From NCBI GenBank assembly GCA_944329195.1, contig CALVHX010000005.1, positions 1-47,006 on the forward strand: a DNA stretch of 47,006 nt, given 5' to 3'. Shown one piece after another: positions 837-15,359 of this stretch (positions are counted from its first letter, which is position 1; every line of letters starts with the position of its first letter). The position numbers were made by a program, and so were the translations under genes. The stretch comes from an uncultured Bacilli bacterium. GTDB taxonomy: Bacteria > Bacillota_I > Bacilli_A > RF39 > UBA660. A model generated the notes under the pieces. The model was not told the origin of the DNA and did no database searches. It saw only the letters and a list, made by a program, of their open reading frames with translations.

Positions 837-865
837 TTGCAGTTAAAAAAATAATGCGGTATAAT
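837..865 (+). promoter_or_regulatory. Strong sigma-A promoter for a small RNA
   Basis: TTGCAG (837-842), a 17-base spacer, then a perfect TATAAT (860-865). It starts 3 bases after the ATPase stop codon and no ORF with a ribosome binding site follows on this strand, so it seems to serve the structured RNA at about 872-976. Confidence 0.75.
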
Positions 866-871
866 TAATAC

Positions 872-976
872 ATCAAATACGAATGAACTTTTTACTAAAG
901 TGTGCGTAACCCCTTTAGTAAACGCTCCATTTGAAAACAACTTACGGACTAATTGAAGTTCGTGAGTTTTTATTTT
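872..976 (+). ncRNA. Predicted small structured RNA (orphan)
   Basis: This is a predicted transcript of about 105 nt running from the promoter at 837-865 to an intrinsic terminator. It contains a perfect 10-bp hairpin (TTTACTAAAG at 891-900 with CTTTAGTAAA at 913-922, 12-base loop). About 17 bases later comes a 12-bp stem (939-950 with 957-968, 6-base loop, two G-U wobbles) running into TTTTTATTTT. The wobble pairs make the second stem favourable as RNA on this strand rather than as a DNA palindrome. No coding frame is convincing. It matches no SRP RNA, 6S RNA, tmRNA or tRNA pattern that I recognise. It could be a regulatory or antitoxin RNA, or an RNA component of the element to the left. 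Confidence 0.6.
939..976 (+). terminator. Intrinsic terminator of the small RNA
   Basis: A 12-bp stem (939-950 / 957-968) with a 6-base loop and two G-U pairs, with a U-rich tail from about 967 to 976. It is oriented for plus-strand transcription. Confidence 0.7.
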
Positions 977-1266: not shown

Positions 1267-2643
1267 TCATCTTTTTTGTATGCTCTTAACCAAAGTTCTC
1301 TTTAAAATTCTATCACCATTTTTAGGCCCAGTTCCTAAGGCAGATATCTCAACATTAGTCTCTCTTTCAAGCCAACTAAAATATTCTCTTAAATATCTAT
1401 TAAAATAATACTCTTCAAAATTACCTTTTTCACCTTTAAAATCTAAATCTAATTGTTGAAAAAAGTTTAAATACAAACTAGAAGGAGTATTAATTTGACA
1501 ATTTGTTTTTAATTTTCTTATATCTAAATCGAATATTCTTCTTTCCATTTTTGTTACTGTCGTTTGTTCAGATTGATCAAATATAGTATTAGGTGGAAAA
1601 TCACTATCTACCATTGGAAGTTCAATCAACTTTGTTTCATATTCAGATAATCCCTTAGATTTATACATTAATCGTTCTAATTCTAGAGCTTCAATTAATG
1701 TTATAGTATCTAAATTTTTTGATTTATAATTTTCTCCAAAAACTTGTTTTAAATATATTGGAGGGCAATGACTGATAATTTTCTTTAATTTTTTAATATT
1801 TAAATGACTAGGAAAACATTCAACATCACCACGACAAGGATAGCATCCATACATTGCCGCAAGATTAACTTGTGTCCACATTAATTCATCGCCACTACCA
1901 TAACCACCTGTATAGATAACGTCTCCAGATTTAGTTACATTACTAATTCTTATTGGAAAAGGTCTTATCACCATAATAGTTTGTAATAGTCTTTCGGGTG
2001 AAATTCCTGAATCTGCAAGTAATTGCGCAGTAGAAACATTTCTACTAGTAACATAAGGATAATTACCACTATGATTTAAATCTAAATCACACCCTTGAGA
2101 TCCTTCTAACATTACATATTCTAAAGGGTTATCAAGATGATTATATAATCTCTCTATCCATTCGCCATTAGAACAAACAATTGCATTTTTAAACGTCTTA
2201 AAAAATTCTAATCTATTATCACGAAGAATTTTTTCACTTAAAACAGCTCCACATCCTTTAAATGTTGAACCACTTTTAATATGTTCTTTTTCATATTGTT
2301 TATGTCTTTCATCAATTAAAGGAACCATTTCATGAACATAAATTTTTCTATCCCCTAGATATTTACTAGCTTGTTCATATTCATTGCTAAATACTTCCAT
2401 ATCAATAGCAGAACCAGGACCTATAAATAACTCTGTATTAGGATTAACTGATGATACGGGGATATTTCTAAAAACAGTAGCATTACCATTTTCATCTACA
2501 AAAGTATGACCTGCATTTGGCATACAATTAGTAACAGAAGCACCTAGATTAATGGATTTATCAGTTGCTATTTCCCCAATAACTTTAGCCTTACCACAAC
2601 TACCAGCTTCTCCATCTATTACTGATATAACATTTTTAACCAT
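1267..2643 (-). CDS. PurZ-like adenylosuccinate synthetase paralogue
   Basis: A member of the adenylosuccinate synthetase superfamily, 458 residues. The P-loop reads GSCGKAK (14-20) where PurA has GDEGKGK, so the catalytic Asp is Ser15. His46 of NAGHT is kept. Other family blocks are GSTFKGCG (125-132), EGSQG (180-184), YPYVTSRN (195-202), TTVTKMERR (361-369) and a C-terminal GTGP (437-440). The last blocks resemble the archaeal/phage PurZ branch rather than housekeeping PurA. From memory, Asp-to-Ser is the hallmark of PurZ, which joins aspartate to dGMP on the way to diaminopurine nucleotides. An extra segment of roughly 100 residues (about 262-360) makes it longer than phage PurZ. It lies 20 bases behind the Ppx-like gene, in one operon. 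The substrate ((d)GMP or IMP) is not proven. Confidence 0.85.
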   Translation of the reverse strand: MVKNVISVIDGEAGSCGKAKVIGEIATDKSINLGASVTNCMPNAGHTFVDENGNATVFRNIPVSSVNPNTELFIGPGSAIDMEVFSNEYEQASKYLGDRKIYVHEMVPLIDERHKQYEKEHIKSGSTFKGCGAVLSEKILRDNRLEFFKTFKNAIVCSNGEWIERLYNHLDNPLEYVMLEGSQGCDLDLNHSGNYPYVTSRNVSTAQLLADSGISPERLLQTIMVIRPFPIRISNVTKSGDVIYTGGYGSGDELMWTQVNLAAMYGCYPCRGDVECFPSHLNIKKLKKIISHCPPIYLKQVFGENYKSKNLDTITLIEALELERLMYKSKGLSEYETKLIELPMVDSDFPPNTIFDQSEQTTVTKMERRIFDLDIRKLKTNCQINTPSSLYLNFFQQLDLDFKGEKGNFEEYYFNRYLREYFSWLERETNVEISALGTGPKNGDRILKRTLVKSIQKR

Positions 2644-2663
2644 AATATCTCCCTAAATAAGTT

Positions 2664-3560
2664 TTACTTTAAATCATTTATAACCCCATTTATTAAATTT
2701 AAATCTGACGGAATAATCCATTTTACATTTGCTATTTTAAATAATACTAAAGGTATAATGGCACCACTTCTTGCACCATCCATCCATTTAGGATTATTAG
2801 GCATTAATTTATATAATTCATCAAGAGAAATATCATAAAATACCTTTTTAGTACCTTCAATATAATCTTCTAAACTAAGCATATATTTATGAACATTATC
2901 ATTAAACAAAGTATTATCTACTAAATTAAATCCAGTTAGCAATTCAAATCTTTCTTCACCACCAGTAAATATTGCACAATCATAATCTTTATCTAATTCA
3001 ATATTAGATAATTTTTCTAGAGCAAACTTTTCCATCTCTTCAACAGTATTACCACTATATTTGTCATTAACTTTATCAAAATTATTTAATAAATCAGCGA
3101 CGCCAATCGTTAAATTTTTTGTATCAGTTATTTTATCACCTACAAAAGTTACTAACTCAGTAGTTTTACCACCCATATTAATAATTAAGACTTTCTTGTT
3201 GTTATAATCATTTTCCATAGCTTTGGCTAAATAATAATTCTCAATACCATGACTAATAATATTAAAATGTAAATCAAATTTTTCGTTAAACAACTTAACT
3301 AAATCTTGTTTTCTTTTTTGTGTTAAATTTCTAAATATACCAGTAACGAAAATATTTGTATTATAATACTTTAAATTATATTTGGTTTTTATTTTTTCAA
3401 AGTAATCGCATAGTTCTTTTAAATTATTTTCACTAATACCTTTTCCTCTATCAAAATCATTTTTAAAATATATAGAATGTTCTTCAATAAGTTTTAATTC
3501 ATTCTCATAACAATAAACTTTTATTGTTGATGAACCAAGATCTATATAATAATTTTTCAT
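2664..3560 (-). CDS. Ppx/GppA-like ASKHA phosphatase family protein
   Basis: 298 residues from the ATG at 3560, which has AGGAG 8 bases upstream; the in-frame start 10 codons earlier lacks such a site. The ASKHA phosphate-1 motif is YIDLGSSTIKV (5-15), phosphate-2 is NMGGKTTEL (128-136) with Asn in place of the usual Asp, and the adenosine-type motif is FTGGEE (198-203). A Glu in GIEN (107) sits where Ppx/GppA keep their catalytic Glu. The length fits a bare two-lobed Ppx/GppA domain without the C-terminal HD region. Family members hydrolyse polyphosphate or pppGpp. It is the first gene of an operon with the PurZ-like enzyme, which suggests a guanine-nucleotide substrate or regulator; that link is inference. 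Confidence 0.75.
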   Translation of the reverse strand: MKNYYIDLGSSTIKVYCYENELKLIEEHSIYFKNDFDRGKGISENNLKELCDYFEKIKTKYNLKYYNTNIFVTGIFRNLTQKRKQDLVKLFNEKFDLHFNIISHGIENYYLAKAMENDYNNKKVLIINMGGKTTELVTFVGDKITDTKNLTIGVADLLNNFDKVNDKYSGNTVEEMEKFALEKLSNIELDKDYDCAIFTGGEERFELLTGFNLVDNTLFNDNVHKYMLSLEDYIEGTKKVFYDISLDELYKLMPNNPKWMDGARSGAIIPLVLFKIANVKWIIPSDLNLINGVINDLK

Positions 3561-3611
3561 ATTATCAACTCCTATACAATATTTTATCATATAATTCTGC
3601 TATTTTAAAGG

Positions 3612-3633: not shown

Positions 3634-3680
3634 ATTTTCAGTAAAAAAGAGTAAAGATTTTTCGCAAAAAATTTGATAAA

Positions 3681-3712
3681 TTACTACATAATAAAAAGAT
3701 GGTATGTAGTAA
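3681..3712 (+). promoter_or_regulatory. Inverted repeat over the transposase start codon
   Basis: TTACTACATA (3681-3690) and TATGTAGTAA (3703-3712) form a perfect 10-bp stem with a 12-base loop. Its right arm ends on the A of the ATG at 3712. It could sequester the start of the transposase in read-through mRNA, a usual way insertion sequences limit expression, or serve as an operator. Confidence 0.5.
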
Positions 3713-4995
3713 TGAATCGAAAAACAAGAAGAGAATTGAAAAAAGACAAAAATTTGATAAAAGAATTATATTCTATAATAGTAAAATATCTGTCGAAATT
3801 ATTAACAATGTTTAATAATTTAACTGATACTAGGCATCAAAGTTATGTAACATATTCAATGAAAACAATTTATGTTACCAGACTATTTCCACTTTTATGT
3901 GGCTTAACAACTATGACAGACATTTCAACAGATACATTTAATACAGATACTTGTATAAAAAATATATCTAAAATATGTAATCAAAATTTAAGCGAACTTC
4001 CTTATTGGGAAACTATCCAAGATGTATTTATGAATATTAAAACTAGTGAACTAAGAGACATTCAAAAGTATATTGTTAAAACTCTAATCCGTTCTAAAAT
4101 GTTTGATAGATATAAATATGATGGTTATTTTCAAATTGTTGTTGATGGAACCGGTCTTTCTAATCATAGTTATAATTTAAACGATAATTGCATTAAAAAG
4201 AAATATAAAGATGGAAAAATTGCTTATTGTAAATATGTTTTAGAATGTAAATTAATCGTCGGTAATATAGTTATTAGTTTAGATAGTGAATGGATAGAAA
4301 ATGCAGAAAACTTAAATGAAAATCAAAAACAAGATTGTGAAACTAAAGTTTTTGAAAGAATGGCAAAAAGAATTAAAAAGAAATATCCTAAGCAAAAATT
4401 CATTATTACTGCCGATGCTTTATATTGTACTTCTCCAATGATTTGTATTTGTAAAGAAAACCATTGGAAATATATATTTAATCTAAATGATAGATTACGA
4501 ACCGTTTTCAAGGGTTTTAATGATTATATTGAGTGTTTTAACGATTGTTCTATTGAAAACTATTTTTTAGATAACAATTATAAGTATAAAAATCATAAAT
4601 TTAATATAATAAAATTCACTGAGAGCAAAAAGAAAAAAACGACCAATTTTCATTATATTACCAACTTAAAAGTAACTAACAATAATATCAAAAAAATTGT
4701 ATGTTTAGGTAGAAATCGCTGGAAAATTGAAAATCAAGGTTTTTTATAATCAAAAGCATCGCACTTTTGATATTACTCATTTAAATTCTAGAAACGATAC
4801 GGCTTTAAAAAATCATTATTTCTTTATTCAATTTGCTCATACAATTAGACAACTGCTAGAAAAGGTAATAAATCAATTAAATTGTTAAATTTGAAAATAA
4901 AAGAAGTAAGTTACATTTTACTAAACAACCTTACTTCAACAATCTCAGATCTTAATAATTTAGAAACTAACTTTCAATTAAGATTTGATGAATAA
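3712..4995 (+). pseudogene. IS transposase (IS4/ISLre-type DDE) with two frameshifts
   Basis: The first frame (ATG 3712) gives 345 residues with DDE-transposase hallmarks: VVDGTGLS, ITADALY and RNRWKIENQGF near its end. At a run of six T's (about 4740) the frame breaks and hits TAA at 4747. Homology-like sequence continues in the next frame (YNQKHRTFDITHLNSRND... to the TAA at 4886). It then returns to the original frame (LKIKEVSYILLNNLTS... NFQLRFDE) and stops at 4993-4995. A single T gain at 4740 and a single-base change around 4870-4885 would restore a product of about 427 residues. I could not find convincing terminal inverted repeats, so the element borders are open. Slippage at T6 is an alternative for the first break but does not explain the second. 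Confidence 0.7.
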
Positions 4996-5294: not shown

Positions 5295-6269
5295 CTATAA
5301 AAATTCTGGAATCTCAGATAATATTTTATACTCACTTACTCCAATTGGTTTATTGATATCCTTTAATGCTAATTCAGCAGTAACTCTCTTCTTATCTTTA
5401 CAAAGTAATATACCAAATGTTGGATTATCCTTTTCATCTTTAATACATTTGTCAACCGCACTTAAATAAAAGTTTAGTTTACCAGCATATTCAGGTTTAA
5501 ACACTGTTGTTTTAAGTTCAATAACTACATAACTTCTAACTTTTAGATTATAGAATAATAAATCTAAATAATAGTCTTCATTTTCAATTTCTAAATGATA
5601 TTGTCTACCAACAAAAGCAAAACCATTCCCTAACTCCAATAATAACTTGGTTATATTTGCTGTTAATTCTCTTTCGATATCAAGTTCTTTTAAATCTTTA
5701 TCGGTAGTTATAAAATCAAATATATATGGACTTTTTAATAATTCTTTTGCTTGTTCATTATTAGGAGAAGGCAATGTTTCATCAAAATTAGTTGTTTTAT
5801 TTTTTAATAGTGCCTGTCTTTCATATAATTTACTTGCTATTTGATGAACAATTACAGGTCTTGTCCAACCGTTTTGAAGAGATTCCTTAATATACCAGCT
5901 TCTTTGTTCTTTATCTTTTACTTGATCCATTATAGTTGTTATAGAAGACCAAGGTAATTTTGCAACATGATGTTGCAAAAATTCATCGTTATCAAATTCA
6001 GTAGCAAATTTTTGCATATATCTTAAGTTTCTTGCTGACATACCTTTTAATGCAGGAAACTCCATTTTTAAATCTTTTGCTAAAGTATCTATAAAAGATG
6101 AACCCCATTTATTGTTTTCAATTAGTTTTAAACCAATATTGTAATACATTAATACTAAATCTTTATTAGCATTTTCTACTATCCTATTTCTAGTAGTAAT
6201 TAAAGTTTTCTTAATGTCATTTAATACTTCAAAATATTTATCATTATTTTCTAACTTAACATCCTCCAT
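5295..6269 (-). CDS. YhcG-type PDDEXK nuclease (DUF1016), amber-truncated
   Basis: A DUF1016/YhcG protein of 324 residues. The N-terminal helical domain carries GSSFIDTLAKDLKMEFP and SARNLRYMQKF. The C-terminal PDDEXK fold has FAFVGRQYHLEIENEDYYLDLLFYN and then the E-x-K of VVIELKTTVFKPEYAGKLNFYL. The family is thought to be a nuclease and is common in defence islands and near restriction systems. The ORF ends at TAG (5295-5297), but 18 more in-frame codons (NTLPSIEDIEKRLEEDSE) follow to a TAA at 5238-5240. They match the usual end of the family, so one nonsense change has clipped the tail. The catalytic core is complete and the protein may still work. Confidence 0.85.
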   Translation of the reverse strand: MEDVKLENNDKYFEVLNDIKKTLITTRNRIVENANKDLVLMYYNIGLKLIENNKWGSSFIDTLAKDLKMEFPALKGMSARNLRYMQKFATEFDNDEFLQHHVAKLPWSSITTIMDQVKDKEQRSWYIKESLQNGWTRPVIVHQIASKLYERQALLKNKTTNFDETLPSPNNEQAKELLKSPYIFDFITTDKDLKELDIERELTANITKLLLELGNGFAFVGRQYHLEIENEDYYLDLLFYNLKVRSYVVIELKTTVFKPEYAGKLNFYLSAVDKCIKDEKDNPTFGILLCKDKKRVTAELALKDINKPIGVSEYKILSEIPEFL

Positions 6270-11350: not shown

Positions 11351-11405
11351 AATAATCAAGCTCCTAATTTTAGTTTACATTTTTTCACTTCAATATATAA
11401 CCAAA

Positions 11406-12308
11406 TCACTTTTCATCAAAATATAAATTTTTCATCAACTTAGCACCTATATCCTGAGTATTATGAGCCTCACATATAGTTATAGGAGTAAGCTTCATTT
11501 CTTTAATTGCCAATATATAGTCTTGCGCCCTCGGCATATACTCATCATCTGTTTCAAATAAAGATAACTGATTAATTTCCTTTTTATCACCAAATGCTTT
11601 ATGAACTTTTTCACCTTTATCAGAATAGTCTACAGGATAAACATGAAAGTGTGTTTCTTCTAAAATATCTCTACCCAATTCCCTTTCTATCTTTTTCAAA
11701 ACATCAACTATTTTATTTTTTGATGACATACTTCCCAATTCTCTAGCATGCAAATGCGCTAAATCGATACAAGGTCTAGCATAATCCACATTTTTACAAA
11801 TTTGAATTATTTCATCCAAACTTCCAATCTGATTTACTTTCCCTCCAATTTCAGGATAAATCTTTATATTTTGAGTATCTATATCTTTTTTTATAGAATT
11901 TAAAGCATCAATAAGTTTTTTTAATCCTAACTTTCTTTCTTTTTCGGTCTTCCCATATCCCGCTCCAGGATGAAAAATAATTCTACTAACGCCAAGTAAT
12001 TCAGCTAGTTCAAAAGCTTTTTTAATTTCTAATTTTGATCTTTCTACTACTTCTTCTTTTTGAGAAGCAAGACTTATATAATACGGAGCATGCATCGTAA
12101 TCAATATCCCATGCTCTTCTGCAAGGCTACGATAAAGTACTGCTTGCTCTTTTTTCATTCTAATTCCATAAGTACATTGAAGCTCAATACAATCTAAATC
12201 AATTTCTTTTAACCAAGCAAAAATATTCTCTCTTTTTTTACCATACTTACTATCAAAAAAATTAATCGGAAACCCAGCAACACCAAATTTAATTTGCTTC
12301 CCCATCAT
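11406..12308 (-). CDS. Endonuclease IV-like/xylose-isomerase TIM barrel
   Basis: 300 residues in the AP endonuclease 2/xylose isomerase-like TIM-barrel superfamily. Metal-ligand-type residues are spread at strand ends as in Nfo: MHAPYY, IIFHPGAGYG, IYPEIGG, CIDLAHLHARE, ETHFHVYPVDY and TICEAHN. GGAG lies 6 bases before the ATG pair at 12308/12305. It overlaps the preceding FAD-oxidoreductase gene by 20 bases and is followed by the UDG-like gene. It may cut abasic sites or isomerise a sugar; the residues are compatible with a three-metal Nfo site but do not prove it. The repair reading is favoured because of its neighbour. Confidence 0.75.
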   Translation of the reverse strand: MMGKQIKFGVAGFPINFFDSKYGKKRENIFAWLKEIDLDCIELQCTYGIRMKKEQAVLYRSLAEEHGILITMHAPYYISLASQKEEVVERSKLEIKKAFELAELLGVSRIIFHPGAGYGKTEKERKLGLKKLIDALNSIKKDIDTQNIKIYPEIGGKVNQIGSLDEIIQICKNVDYARPCIDLAHLHARELGSMSSKNKIVDVLKKIERELGRDILEETHFHVYPVDYSDKGEKVHKAFGDKKEINQLSLFETDDEYMPRAQDYILAIKEMKLTPITICEAHNTQDIGAKLMKNLYFDEK

Positions 12309-13659
12309 AACTACTCCTTAATATATCATCACTAATAATTTTACCAGAAATCATAGCTTGCATTAACCCACGAAAATATCCGCTGGCATCTCCACCAATA
12401 TATAATCCTTTTATATTCGTTTCAAAATTACTATTAAGTTTATATTTATTAGCACCAAACTCAAATGAAGGTGCATAAATTATATTTTTTTCATTTGCAA
12501 AACCAGGTAAAACTTCATCTATGTCGATTATCATTTCTTTAATATATCTCAAGGTATCTGCTGGTAAATATTTATTAATATTACCACAAACATAGTCTTT
12601 CATTGTACAGTACTCATCATCAATAAAGCAATCCTCAGTATCATTGAGAAAGGACTTCATATTTTGAACAATGGGCTTCCTATTCTTATTAGAATCAAAA
12701 ATCATTTTATTAAAATCATCTATTTTTTTTACATCACTCTTTCTATGATGTATGGCTATATTTACACTTTTTGTATTATTATCTTCCGGTCCTAACACAC
12801 ATCCATCTAAAGAAGATAACTTTCTAGCATTAACATCAAAGACACATTTTCTAACAATACCTTTGTAATTTTGACAAAAAGTTCTAATTTCGTTGGCATC
12901 ATCTATTCTTCTTTTAAGTTTAATATCATTAAAAACATCATTAATTTTTTCAAATACTTTGCTTGGCATTTCAATTCTCACACCAATTTCACCAACTAAA
13001 TTATCACTTTCGTATTTTATTCCAATGTTATCAGCGAGTCTATTCAAAAACATACCGCCATATCTACCAGTTGCTAAGATAACTCTATGAGCACTGATCA
13101 TTTTTCTATCAGTATATACTTTAAAATCATTTTCATGTTTAATATCTAGTACTTTTTCACCCCATATGAATGAAACATTATTTTTGTCAAGTTTCTTCCT
13201 AATATTCAGTCCAATCTTCTGCATAATATTTTTATCTACTTTTTGAGCATTATAGTATTTAATATCTATATTATGAAGATTAAAATCATCTACTATATTA
13301 TTAATTAATACACTATCAACGTCTTCACGCAATGGCTTACCAAAATCTACCAACAAATCTTCAATTTCGTTATAATATTTACGAATATCTTCTTTAGACT
13401 TAAATTTTAATAATCCCGATCCTGCTGGATAAAAGCAAGCCTTAGTTCCATCTAAAAATTGACAACCACCATATCCAGAAATAATATTACATGGATTGCA
13501 ATTTTCTTTACACTTTAAGCCAAGATCCAAATTACAGATTCTTTGTTCAAAATTTCTTCCGGCCTCTATTACACAAACTTTAAAGTCTTTACTTAACTGT
13601 AACGCACTAATTAATCCGCATGGGCCAGCACCAACTATACAAATATCACAGCTTATCAT
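12289..13659 (-). CDS. FAD-dependent dehydrogenase (COG2509-like)
   Basis: 456 residues. An N-terminal Rossmann dinucleotide-binding motif, VGAGPCGLISALQL (9-22), is followed by the Glu that binds ribose. A Cys cluster (CNLDLGLKC, CNPC) comes just after it, then a second Rossmann-like strand (VILATGRYGG). The C-terminal FAD end motif is GLYIGGDASGYFRGLMQA. The order and length fit the uncharacterised FAD-dependent dehydrogenase family. It is the first gene of a three-gene unit with the TIM-barrel and UDG-like genes. The substrate is unknown and a link to DNA repair is not evident. Confidence 0.82.
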   Translation of the reverse strand: MISCDICIVGAGPCGLISALQLSKDFKVCVIEAGRNFEQRICNLDLGLKCKENCNPCNIISGYGGCQFLDGTKACFYPAGSGLLKFKSKEDIRKYYNEIEDLLVDFGKPLREDVDSVLINNIVDDFNLHNIDIKYYNAQKVDKNIMQKIGLNIRKKLDKNNVSFIWGEKVLDIKHENDFKVYTDRKMISAHRVILATGRYGGMFLNRLADNIGIKYESDNLVGEIGVRIEMPSKVFEKINDVFNDIKLKRRIDDANEIRTFCQNYKGIVRKCVFDVNARKLSSLDGCVLGPEDNNTKSVNIAIHHRKSDVKKIDDFNKMIFDSNKNRKPIVQNMKSFLNDTEDCFIDDEYCTMKDYVCGNINKYLPADTLRYIKEMIIDIDEVLPGFANEKNIIYAPSFEFGANKYKLNSNFETNIKGLYIGGDASGYFRGLMQAMISGKIISDDILRSSYDGEAN

Positions 13660-13878
13660 TTCACACCCTCTTAACTTAATATAAATAAAAAACCAATAGC
13701 TTTTCTAAAATAGCAGTTTATATATAAATTTATATAATATTATGGCTATTTTTAAATAACTTATATAACTATAAAATAAACCAACCTACTTAACTGCTTC
13801 TACAAAGCTTTGATTTAATATTATAACTAAACATTTTTTAATTGTAGAACTATTTCTATTAAAAAAAGAAAGATCAAA

Positions 13879-14283
13879 TTACTGACCTTCTTCATTGCTT
13901 TCGGAATCACTATTCATATCTTCTAGATCGACAAAGTTACAACTGTCATTTTCTTTACCTTTGGAAACTATGCATGACCAGCATCCTCTCCAATCATTAG
14001 TACCTGAAACTTCATCTCCATCAAATAAAGATGTCACGAAACTTAAAGCAAGTTGAACACCCCACACTACAGCAAAAACTAATACTGCATATAATAATCT
14101 TCTAAGAAAGGCAGATCTTGCTTTTTTAACTTCATCTTCCTTACTAGCAATAACAGCTTTTCCCAAATCGATCATACCAAGAATTATAAGTATTATTGGA
14201 ATTCCGATTTTTATGAACTCGATTATATATCCAATCAAAGTCATTACTGGTTTTAACTCACTAGCACAATCTAATATATACAT
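13879..14283 (-). CDS. Two-helix membrane protein, TrbC/VirB2-like
   Basis: 134 residues with two hydrophobic helices (about 14-45 and 67-95) separated by a short charged loop (KEDEVKKARSAFLRR), then an acidic, Cys-containing C-terminal tail. The layout resembles TrbC/VirB2-type pilins and small pore proteins of conjugation systems, but there is no long signal peptide. It is the last gene of the Tad-like locus, 53 bases after the TadZ-like gene, so it probably belongs to the same apparatus as a membrane subunit. The assignment rests on shape only. Confidence 0.6.
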   Translation of the reverse strand: MYILDCASELKPVMTLIGYIIEFIKIGIPIILIILGMIDLGKAVIASKEDEVKKARSAFLRRLLYAVLVFAVVWGVQLALSFVTSLFDGDEVSGTNDWRGCWSCIVSKGKENDSCNFVDLEDMNSDSESNEEGQ

Positions 14284-14336
14284 ATCACCACTCCTTCACA
14301 TAAGAATATTTTACATTATAAATCATTAAAAGTCAA

Positions 14337-15359
14337 TTATTTAAAGAAATTAAATAGCTTATTTATCTTTTTTTCTTGTTTTTCCACAGGCTCAGCTTGT
14401 TTTATATACCCTAATTTCTCCAATAGAGGAAGTAAAATATCACTACAATCTTCCTTATCATTTAATGGAGGAATAGTATAAAATAGCTTTAGCCCTGTTT
14501 CAACTTCAAAATCAGAAATATCATCTTCTTTTAATAAACTCTTATTAAGTACTACCTTTTTGTCTTTTAACTCCATAAATATATCTTTATTAATTAATAC
14601 TAATTCGTTCAGTTTTATAGTACTAGGTTCAATTAGAAATATAATATCCGTACAAATATCTTCTCTTTTTGATTTGTTCAAATCAATTAGAAAAATATCA
14701 ACAGCACTATATTTAGATATTGTACCTTCAAGCTCACTTTCTTTTATTGAAATAGAATCTTTATCATTTAAATAGGTAAAGTCTCTCTTATTTAGTTCCA
14801 AAGACATTACACTATAATAGTCACTTAAAGTTTTCTTTAATAGGTATATCAAAGTAGTAGCGCCCGCAGAGTCAGTAACATTTTTTATACCTAATATTTT
14901 TTGATGGTGGTCAGTATGAGAGACAGCAGTCGAAGCATCAGAAGATTTATTATCATCTTCTTCTTCTTCTAAATCTTGTAAATATGCAACATCACGATAT
15001 ATATTAGGATTTTTATAAAGATGCATAAGACTATTAACATCTTTAGTAAAATTATATATTCCCATATTAACAAGTTTTGATAAAAATTTTTTAGAATTAC
15101 TTATCTGATCATCTTTATCTAAAAGCAATATAACTTTATCCATGTTGATATTCATAGAAAGTTTTTGCAAATTAGATAGATTTTTATAATCTTCAATCGC
15201 TGTAATATCTAAAAACATTTTATTAAAGAAGAAATTGCCGAATTTCTTAATTATTTCATCGACAGTAAAAACGCCTTCCAGTTTTTTAGATACTTCAATA
15301 TTTAAAGAACTTAAAAACTCATTATATTTATTTGCTATTACTGTATCCAATGCAATCAT
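14337..15359 (-). CDS. TadZ/CpaE-like protein with defective P-loop
   Basis: 340 residues. The N-terminal half includes a receiver-like core (MDKVILLLDKDDQISNSKKF, about 73-92), then an acidic Ser/Asp/His linker (131-152). A MinD/ParA-like domain starts with ILGIKNVTDSAGATTL (155-170), the place of the deviant Walker A motif, but it has no Lys. The order (pseudoreceiver plus MinD-like ATPase) is that of TadZ/CpaE, which places Tad machines in the cell. With the Lys lost, ATP hydrolysis is doubtful. Its start overlaps the stop of the pseudopilin gene by 4 bases (ATGA). Confidence 0.65.
   Translation of the reverse strand: MIALDTVIANKYNEFLSSLNIEVSKKLEGVFTVDEIIKKFGNFFFNKMFLDITAIEDYKNLSNLQKLSMNINMDKVILLLDKDDQISNSKKFLSKLVNMGIYNFTKDVNSLMHLYKNPNIYRDVAYLQDLEEEEDDNKSSDASTAVSHTDHHQKILGIKNVTDSAGATTLIYLLKKTLSDYYSVMSLELNKRDFTYLNDKDSISIKESELEGTISKYSAVDIFLIDLNKSKREDICTDIIFLIEPSTIKLNELVLINKDIFMELKDKKVVLNKSLLKEDDISDFEVETGLKLFYTIPPLNDKEDCSDILLPLLEKLGYIKQAEPVEKQEKKINKLFNFFK

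Follow-up and report, generated by a model that had tools for sequence, protein, structure and literature searches.

By comparison with its sequence relatives, the feature at positions 837-976 consists of two unrelated element ends joined at the hexamer GCTCCA (924-929). Its larger part, 837-929, probably constitutes the right-hand half of a two-part RNA switch. This switch would be a terminator-antiterminator pair which is split by integration of a mobile element and rejoined by its excision. The feature lies in a stretch of 47,006 nt from an uncultured Bacilli bacterium (contig CALVHX010000005.1, forward strand), referred to as the window. It had originally been predicted as an orphan small RNA with its own promoter and terminator and with a possible role in an ATPase defence system.

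All parts of the feature are located on the plus strand. Upstream lies an AAA ATPase gene (3-833, Pfam AAA_15/AAA_21), the cargo gene adjoining the right end. Its 5' end is lost at the contig edge, as the contig begins inside it, and it shows a weak likeness to many PADLOC ATPases (AriA, PtuA, others). The right-end promoter TTGCAG-17-TATAAT (837-865) follows the ATPase stop at 833 and consists of TTGCAG at 837-842, a spacer of 17 nt and TATAAT at 860-865. The anti-T2 box ATCAAATACGAATGAACTT (872-890) begins at the predicted transcription start. It is followed by stem S1 (891-922), a perfect 10-bp hairpin of 891-900 with 913-922 and a 12-nt loop. Within the loop, TGTGC (901-905) may serve as an anti-T1 seed, its complementarity to T1 being suggestive only. 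The attachment core GCTCCA (924-929) is identical to the 3' end letters of tRNA-Gly. The spacer and terminator T1 of an MLEF-type left end occupy 930-976 (model R1), whereby the T1 stem comprises 12 bp (939-950 with 957-968) including two G-U pairs and is followed by a T-rich tract. Promoter, both hairpins and U tract were thus located as originally described. The 140 nt fold with a z-score of -3.4, and the whole feature is present once in the window's genome.

The remainder of the MLEF-type left end (977-1110) matches L041, whose left end follows a tRNA-Gly, as well as L170 and, by eye, L016, where the likeness concerns the stretch that follows the small ORF. In the window, neither the small ORF nor the second hairpin, T2, is present, while the shared downstream motif is retained. 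This motif, GTC(T/C)TAGC(C/T)AGCACTGAA...ACTCCCGT, is located at ~1060-1105 and is repeated 3' of many left ends (L016, L041, L043, L046, L063 and L012). Directly after the left-end remnant we observed a divergent adenylosuccinate-synthetase-like gene beside a Ppx/GppA-like gene (1267-3590). A DDE transposase is located at 3673-4749, and a YhcG-type PDDEXK nuclease at 5295-6269 represents a match to the PADLOC candidate PDC-S02.

The likeness to other right ends halts just past 929, and the likeness to other left ends begins at ~925. Of the 291 family genomes, 94 contain a match to the 3' half (model R1) and 34 one to the 5' half (model R2); in 395 genomes drawn from the class, matches were confined to the same family. 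Copies of the 3' half often directly follow tRNA-Gly or tRNA-Cys, and in many of them GCTCCA is the end of the tRNA-Gly (TCC or GCC) or tRNA-Cys gene itself. The order is tRNA end, conserved terminator, second hairpin, small ORF of ~95 aa (MLEF...) and large serine recombinase. Therefore 930-976 was assigned to the left end of one tRNA-targeting element type. In copies of the 5' half, the TTG-17-TATAAT promoter is followed by the box ATCAAATACAAATGAACTT, located where transcription should start, by a stem with covariation and by the core GC[T/A/C]CCA. As a tRNA lies upstream, the RNA downstream and the core repeats the target, 837-929 was assigned to another element type, as its right end. A parallel junction of a right and a left end of different types is found in another genome (L016). 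The terminators beyond the core differ among the 5'-half copies. Judged by these copies, the terminator at 930-976 is not native to the RNA of the 5' half. The original view of a single RNA holds insofar as promoter and terminator are both present, but the terminator belongs to the left end of the other element.

Promoter and 10-bp hairpin are kept in about 45 copies. The -10 element reads TATAAT in 26 and TATGAT in 5 of 34 aligned promoter rows. Of the 33 rows that extend far enough upstream, 21 have TTG exactly 17 nt from the -10 element, at a background TTG frequency of 2%, and about five more have it at spacing 18. The -35 element of the window scores 3 of 6 matches, which is below the -35 cut-off of the promoter tool; the promoter was nevertheless accepted because it is conserved across copies. 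S1 is paired in 90% of the cells versus 42-55% when slid by 1-3 columns, and G-U pairs are common. Double-change cells amount to 21 versus 7.8 in shuffles, in an alignment that had been fitted to the model. The T1 stem (930-976) shows little covariation among 17 sequences. Rfam gave no relevant match for the window or eight relatives, in agreement with the original remark that no known RNA family was recognised. A plasmid database gave no match and a phage database low-complexity matches only.

We regard the small RNA at 837-976 as real, a structured RNA gene that is transcribed from a conserved promoter belonging to it. The original proposal of a regulatory RNA of ~105 nt on this strand is supported to this extent. 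It is very improbable that the feature is a non-functional by-product, with outward promoter and hairpin kept as DNA that the integrase requires. Element ends are indeed often conserved for recombination. Conserved promoter spacing and double changes in S1 are however not explained in this way, nor is a specific complementarity to the other end in element types unrelated in sequence (see below). A coding micro-ORF was rejected, as the short ATG frames read from the alignment are inconsistent among copies owing to a varying length of the T-run. A pseudoknot between the loop GUGC and the core GCNC was also rejected, with one pair broken in 20 copies and the rest barely varying; complementarity of the loop to T1 is a weak alternative cause for the conservation of the S1 loop. 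A tRNA-like RNA ending in CCA was discarded since the CCA is accounted for by the attachment core.

The neighbouring ATPase had led to the proposal that the RNA belongs to an ATPase defence cargo as its component or regulator. The RNA feature does start 3 nt past the ATPase stop. However, its relatives follow many different genes, among them acetyltransferase/ASCH-type genes, other ATPases and a methyltransferase, without an ATPase relative of the window's kind beside them. None of the other fetched loci had the window ATPase, in conflict with the expectation that homologues always follow the same ATPase. This distribution contradicts the proposal, to which we give hardly any credence. The constant partners of the RNA are instead a tRNA-type core, an element end and a serine recombinase operon at the other end.

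The family of 837-929 accordingly belongs, as read from its genomic surroundings, to tRNA-targeting integrative elements with a large serine recombinase, here termed type MKTT, with a small ORF MKTT... and a recombinase of the L092 kind. The elements span from the 3' end of a tRNA or tmRNA to the right-end RNA, and same-strand tRNA or tmRNA genes are found at element-length distance upstream in L089, L092, L093 and L094. Left ends are preceded by tRNA-Gly, Leu, Thr, His or tmRNA, and GC[T/A/C]CCA is repeated at both ends. The core follows the target: GCTCCA with tRNA-Gly, GCACCA with tRNA-Leu and tRNA-Thr, GCCCCA with tRNA-His. The left end consists of one or two predicted hairpins (T1, T2), then a small ORF, then the recombinase. 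The recombinases of L092 and L017, encoded at one element end, match PF00239 and PF07508 (Resolvase and Recombinase domains). The elements are probably mobilizable: a Mob_Pre relaxase is present in the L092 element, for which mobilization genes were checked, and small elements are without it. A search with the L092 recombinase in named genomes yielded 21 loci, all of them in MAGs labelled Bacilli, Bacillales, Tenericutes or Clostridia. In 14 of the 21 the recombinase is preceded by a tRNA gene (Gly, Leu, Thr or His). In most loci with enough sequence the right-end RNA is located downstream on the same strand (L173, L176, L177, L179, L180, L181, L184, L185 and L188, weakly in L183). The small proteins MLEF, MKTT and MVNI (~95 aa; L017, L092, L027) gave no significant Pfam match.

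Several further observations concern these elements. The three small proteins share by eye the pattern.TNL..(I/V).EP....I. A third terminator-like hairpin (ACACAAGGGAATTTTCTCTTGTGTTTTTT) lies between small ORF and recombinase in L176, L177, L184 and L092; by this hairpin and its U tract the recombinase itself may be separately controlled in MKTT types. Units of 1.6-1.7 kb with one or few cargo genes and no recombinase extend from tRNA-Thr or tmRNA to the right-end RNA in L093 and L094, and are integron-cassette-like and probably mobilised in trans. In L092 the stretch from tRNA-Gly to the serine-recombinase element is occupied by a separate, stacked tyrosine-integrase element (11400-14550), which has a Rep-like gene of its own and a tRNA-Gly repeat of 16 nt. 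In some left ends the first terminator is immediately followed by ~20 nt that are antisense to the anticodon arm of tRNA-Gly (e.g. TCACGCAGTCAGCTTGGAAGG; L089 at ~8772-8751 on the minus strand, similarly just after T1 in L018, L049 and L050). If transcription reads through, this segment could base-pair with the tRNA upstream of it on the same RNA.

The link between both ends is the box. Its antisense partner, AAGTTCATAGTATTTGAT, makes up the 5' arm and loop of the left-leader hairpin T2 (...ATTATGGGCTTTTTT). This relation is present in all 13 elements in which both ends are readable, with duplex energies of -16 to -24 kcal/mol. In 9 of the 13, none of 200 dinucleotide shuffles of the leader gave an equally good duplex, and in 12 of 13 at most 2 of 200 did. 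Both sides are changed in L179, L183, L155 and L098, at ends that lie kilobases apart. The matched changes read GTCCACATATTTGAT / ATCAGATATGTGGAT in L179, GCTCAT / ATGAGC in L098 and GGTTCATAACATTTGAT / ATCAAATGTGATGAATT in L155, while L183 exhibits a long match of different sequence. In L179 the 3' arm of T2 is changed too, so that three segments move together. We consider the matching changes in divergent elements, as read from the alignments, the strongest evidence for a relation between box and T2. A G-U count on the box-arm pairs was left unused as the segments had been chosen by eye and mismatches excluded. Pairing against T1 is significant only in L155 and L143 and marginally in the MLEF element L029; S1 and its loop may weaken T1 as well.

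Complementary boxes on either side of the core could also represent a DNA inverted repeat without any role at the RNA level, bound by the recombinase, a directionality factor or the small protein. Both boxes are about equidistant from the core (about 45 nt), like arm-type sites, and two copies of one protein site would co-vary alike. Yet in all types the right box starts at the predicted start of a conserved promoter, and the left box coincides exactly with a hairpin's 5' arm, the hairpin being followed by a U tract. Moreover box, 5' arm and 3' arm change together (e.g. in L179) and G-U pairs are common in S1. We thus regard a pure DNA site as unlikely.

The antisense relation recurs in element types unrelated in sequence. 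From the MLEF T2 arm TGTTCTCTTTCTA we predicted TAGAAAGAGAACA upstream of the right core before the search. It was then found at +1, a few bases past TATAAT and shortly before GC[TC]CCA, in L170, L102 and L031, and with changes in L029, L103, L107 and L027. The next segment of the MLEF right ends, AGTTCGTAA..., is antisense to the T1 arm. L032 and L027 have box/T2 pairs of their own (AATTGAGTTTTATCTCA / TGAGATAAAGCTCAATT and TAGTTAGTAGTTATTACT / AGTAATAAATGCTAACTA), whereas the same examination gave no clear pair in L100. The box is located at the predicted start in each type.

Folding of the left leader alone gave T2 pairing probabilities of 0.72-1.00, and T2 also forms after a tRNA in two cases from the window's own genome. 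When the circle junction was folded with the cognate right half, 14 of 15 elements showed a T2 probability under 0.2; in silico switching was obtained for two complete MLEF elements. Non-cognate right halves left a mean T2 of 0.68, and shuffled right halves led to values below 0.2 in 6% of trials. Many non-cognate pairs work because closely related elements share boxes, while few or no non-cognate halves open L179, L183, L156 or two MLEF left halves. The exception is L180, where T2 is still folded at equilibrium with the cognate half. As the tRNA-Gly left end in the window's own genome also keeps T2 (see below), the model leans on the co-transcriptional order of events.

Element anatomy, promoter conservation, antisense relation, co-variation and thermodynamic plausibility are derived from the sequence. 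We infer that T1 and T2 terminate, that pairing occurs in cis and co-transcriptionally, and that small protein and recombinase are expressed. In the integrated state T1 and T2 would form in the left leader behind the tRNA gene and the operon would be off, while the right-end RNA would stop at any terminator past the core. Excision would join the ends such that promoter, box, S1, core, T1, T2 and operon constitute one transcript. The box would then occupy the 5' arm of T2 as soon as it emerges and ahead of the synthesis of the 3' arm, T2 would fail, and the operon of small protein and recombinase would be read. Integration genes would hence be readable only once the element is excised and circular. 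A separate RNA of ~100 nt is expected even from the integrated right end, which has a promoter and a terminator there. Together with duplex energies of -16 to -24 kcal/mol this would allow a small RNA acting in trans on the left leader, with the integrase going up or down. Relief of T2 in trans would however open the operon in the integrated state too, and the way in which boxes and arms are nested agrees with a single continuous transcript. Action in trans is therefore, in our estimate, even less likely than a DNA site, and the split switch acting in cis is preferred.

Two MKTT-type left ends with intact T2 are present in the window's genome (contigs C56 and C21). The one on C56 follows tRNA-Leu and has a recombinase fragment 78% identical to that of L092; the one on C21 follows tRNA-Gly and is truncated by the end of its contig. 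For the duplex of the window box with C56 and C21 we obtained -16.3 and -21.5 kcal/mol, respectively. With the window RNA, T2 is reduced to 0.01 in C56, where shuffled RNAs gave values below 0.2 in 12 of 100 cases. In C21 it remains at 0.73 at equilibrium versus 1.00 for shuffled RNA. The core letter T points to tRNA-Gly as the site of the window right end. Folding with the adjacent MLEF-type left end leaves T1 folded. The left half adjoining the window RNA is non-cognate, with C21 and C56 as candidate left ends of the cognate type. The window copy would give a terminated RNA of ~105 nt without activating its neighbour, because its right half adjoins a non-cognate left end.

We lean towards the view that several unrelated tRNA-targeting kinds carry a two-part switch, assembled by recombination, which reports excision to the reintegration operon. 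If so, cognate boxes would confer type specificity and tandem neighbours of other types would stay silent. A class of orphan RNAs at genomic-island ends would be explained, and the signature of a right-end box antisense to a left-end terminator would give the exact ends of tRNA-targeting elements, whose cargo resembles defence genes in some cases.

In terminator-antiterminator attenuators and riboswitches one RNA arm chooses between two partners. Unlike there, the two halves considered here reside at opposite ends of an element and meet only by site-specific recombination. Retroregulation of lambda int by sib works via RNase III, which processes the RNA downstream of int, and its effect in the circle is negative. 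With the present switch it shares control of the integrase at the RNA level, set by whether att is intact or split; sib is negative and downstream of int, whereas the present switch would be positive and located at the leader terminator. In the open-licence literature we found no description of an antiterminator split across att. Tn916 has a terminator T1 near one end which insulates the integrated element, and canT at the other end, probably a cis-acting RNA, allows read-through only after circularisation (PMC11658703). The present elements resemble it in that an end terminator would insulate and an RNA from the other end is predicted to antiterminate after excision. For canT, sequences of 232-341 nt were tested; it is processive, acts on heterologous terminators and has no defined pairing (PMC11658703). 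The present box is smaller, ~20 nt, and specific to its own T2, and for this reason processivity of the canT, put or EAR kind is not expected. In ICEKp1, as in ICEclc and ICEEc1, the integrase promoter switches with the state of the element (PMC13023037); analogous behaviour has been measured in ICEKp1 and in Tn916 (PMC13023037, PMC11658703). ICEKp1 integrates at a tRNA 3' end, and in the integrated state transcription from the tRNA promoter enters the int leader with its attenuating stem-loops, the tRNA terminator being displaced to the far end; once excised, the element employs a promoter at its 3' end, where a stretch of 15 bp relieves the terminator (PMC13023037). Insertion at a tRNA 3' end, an outward promoter opposite the integrase and leader stem-loops (here predicted) are common to both, and for the present elements relief of termination in the excised form is predicted by folding. 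The text considered gives no base-pairing explanation for the 15 bp and nothing relevant on antisense or complementarity (PMC13023037). The class described there are ICEs, whereas here serine recombinases with a small ORF ahead of them are concerned, and the antisense boxes change in step with the leader hairpin across several unrelated types. Both recent experimental papers left open by what means integrase or transfer genes come on only after excision although the leader contains terminators (PMC13023037, PMC11658703); base pairing is offered here as a simple mechanism. The regulatory idea as such is already known from ICEKp1 and Tn916 canT; what differs here is the recombinase class and the explicit pairing mechanism.
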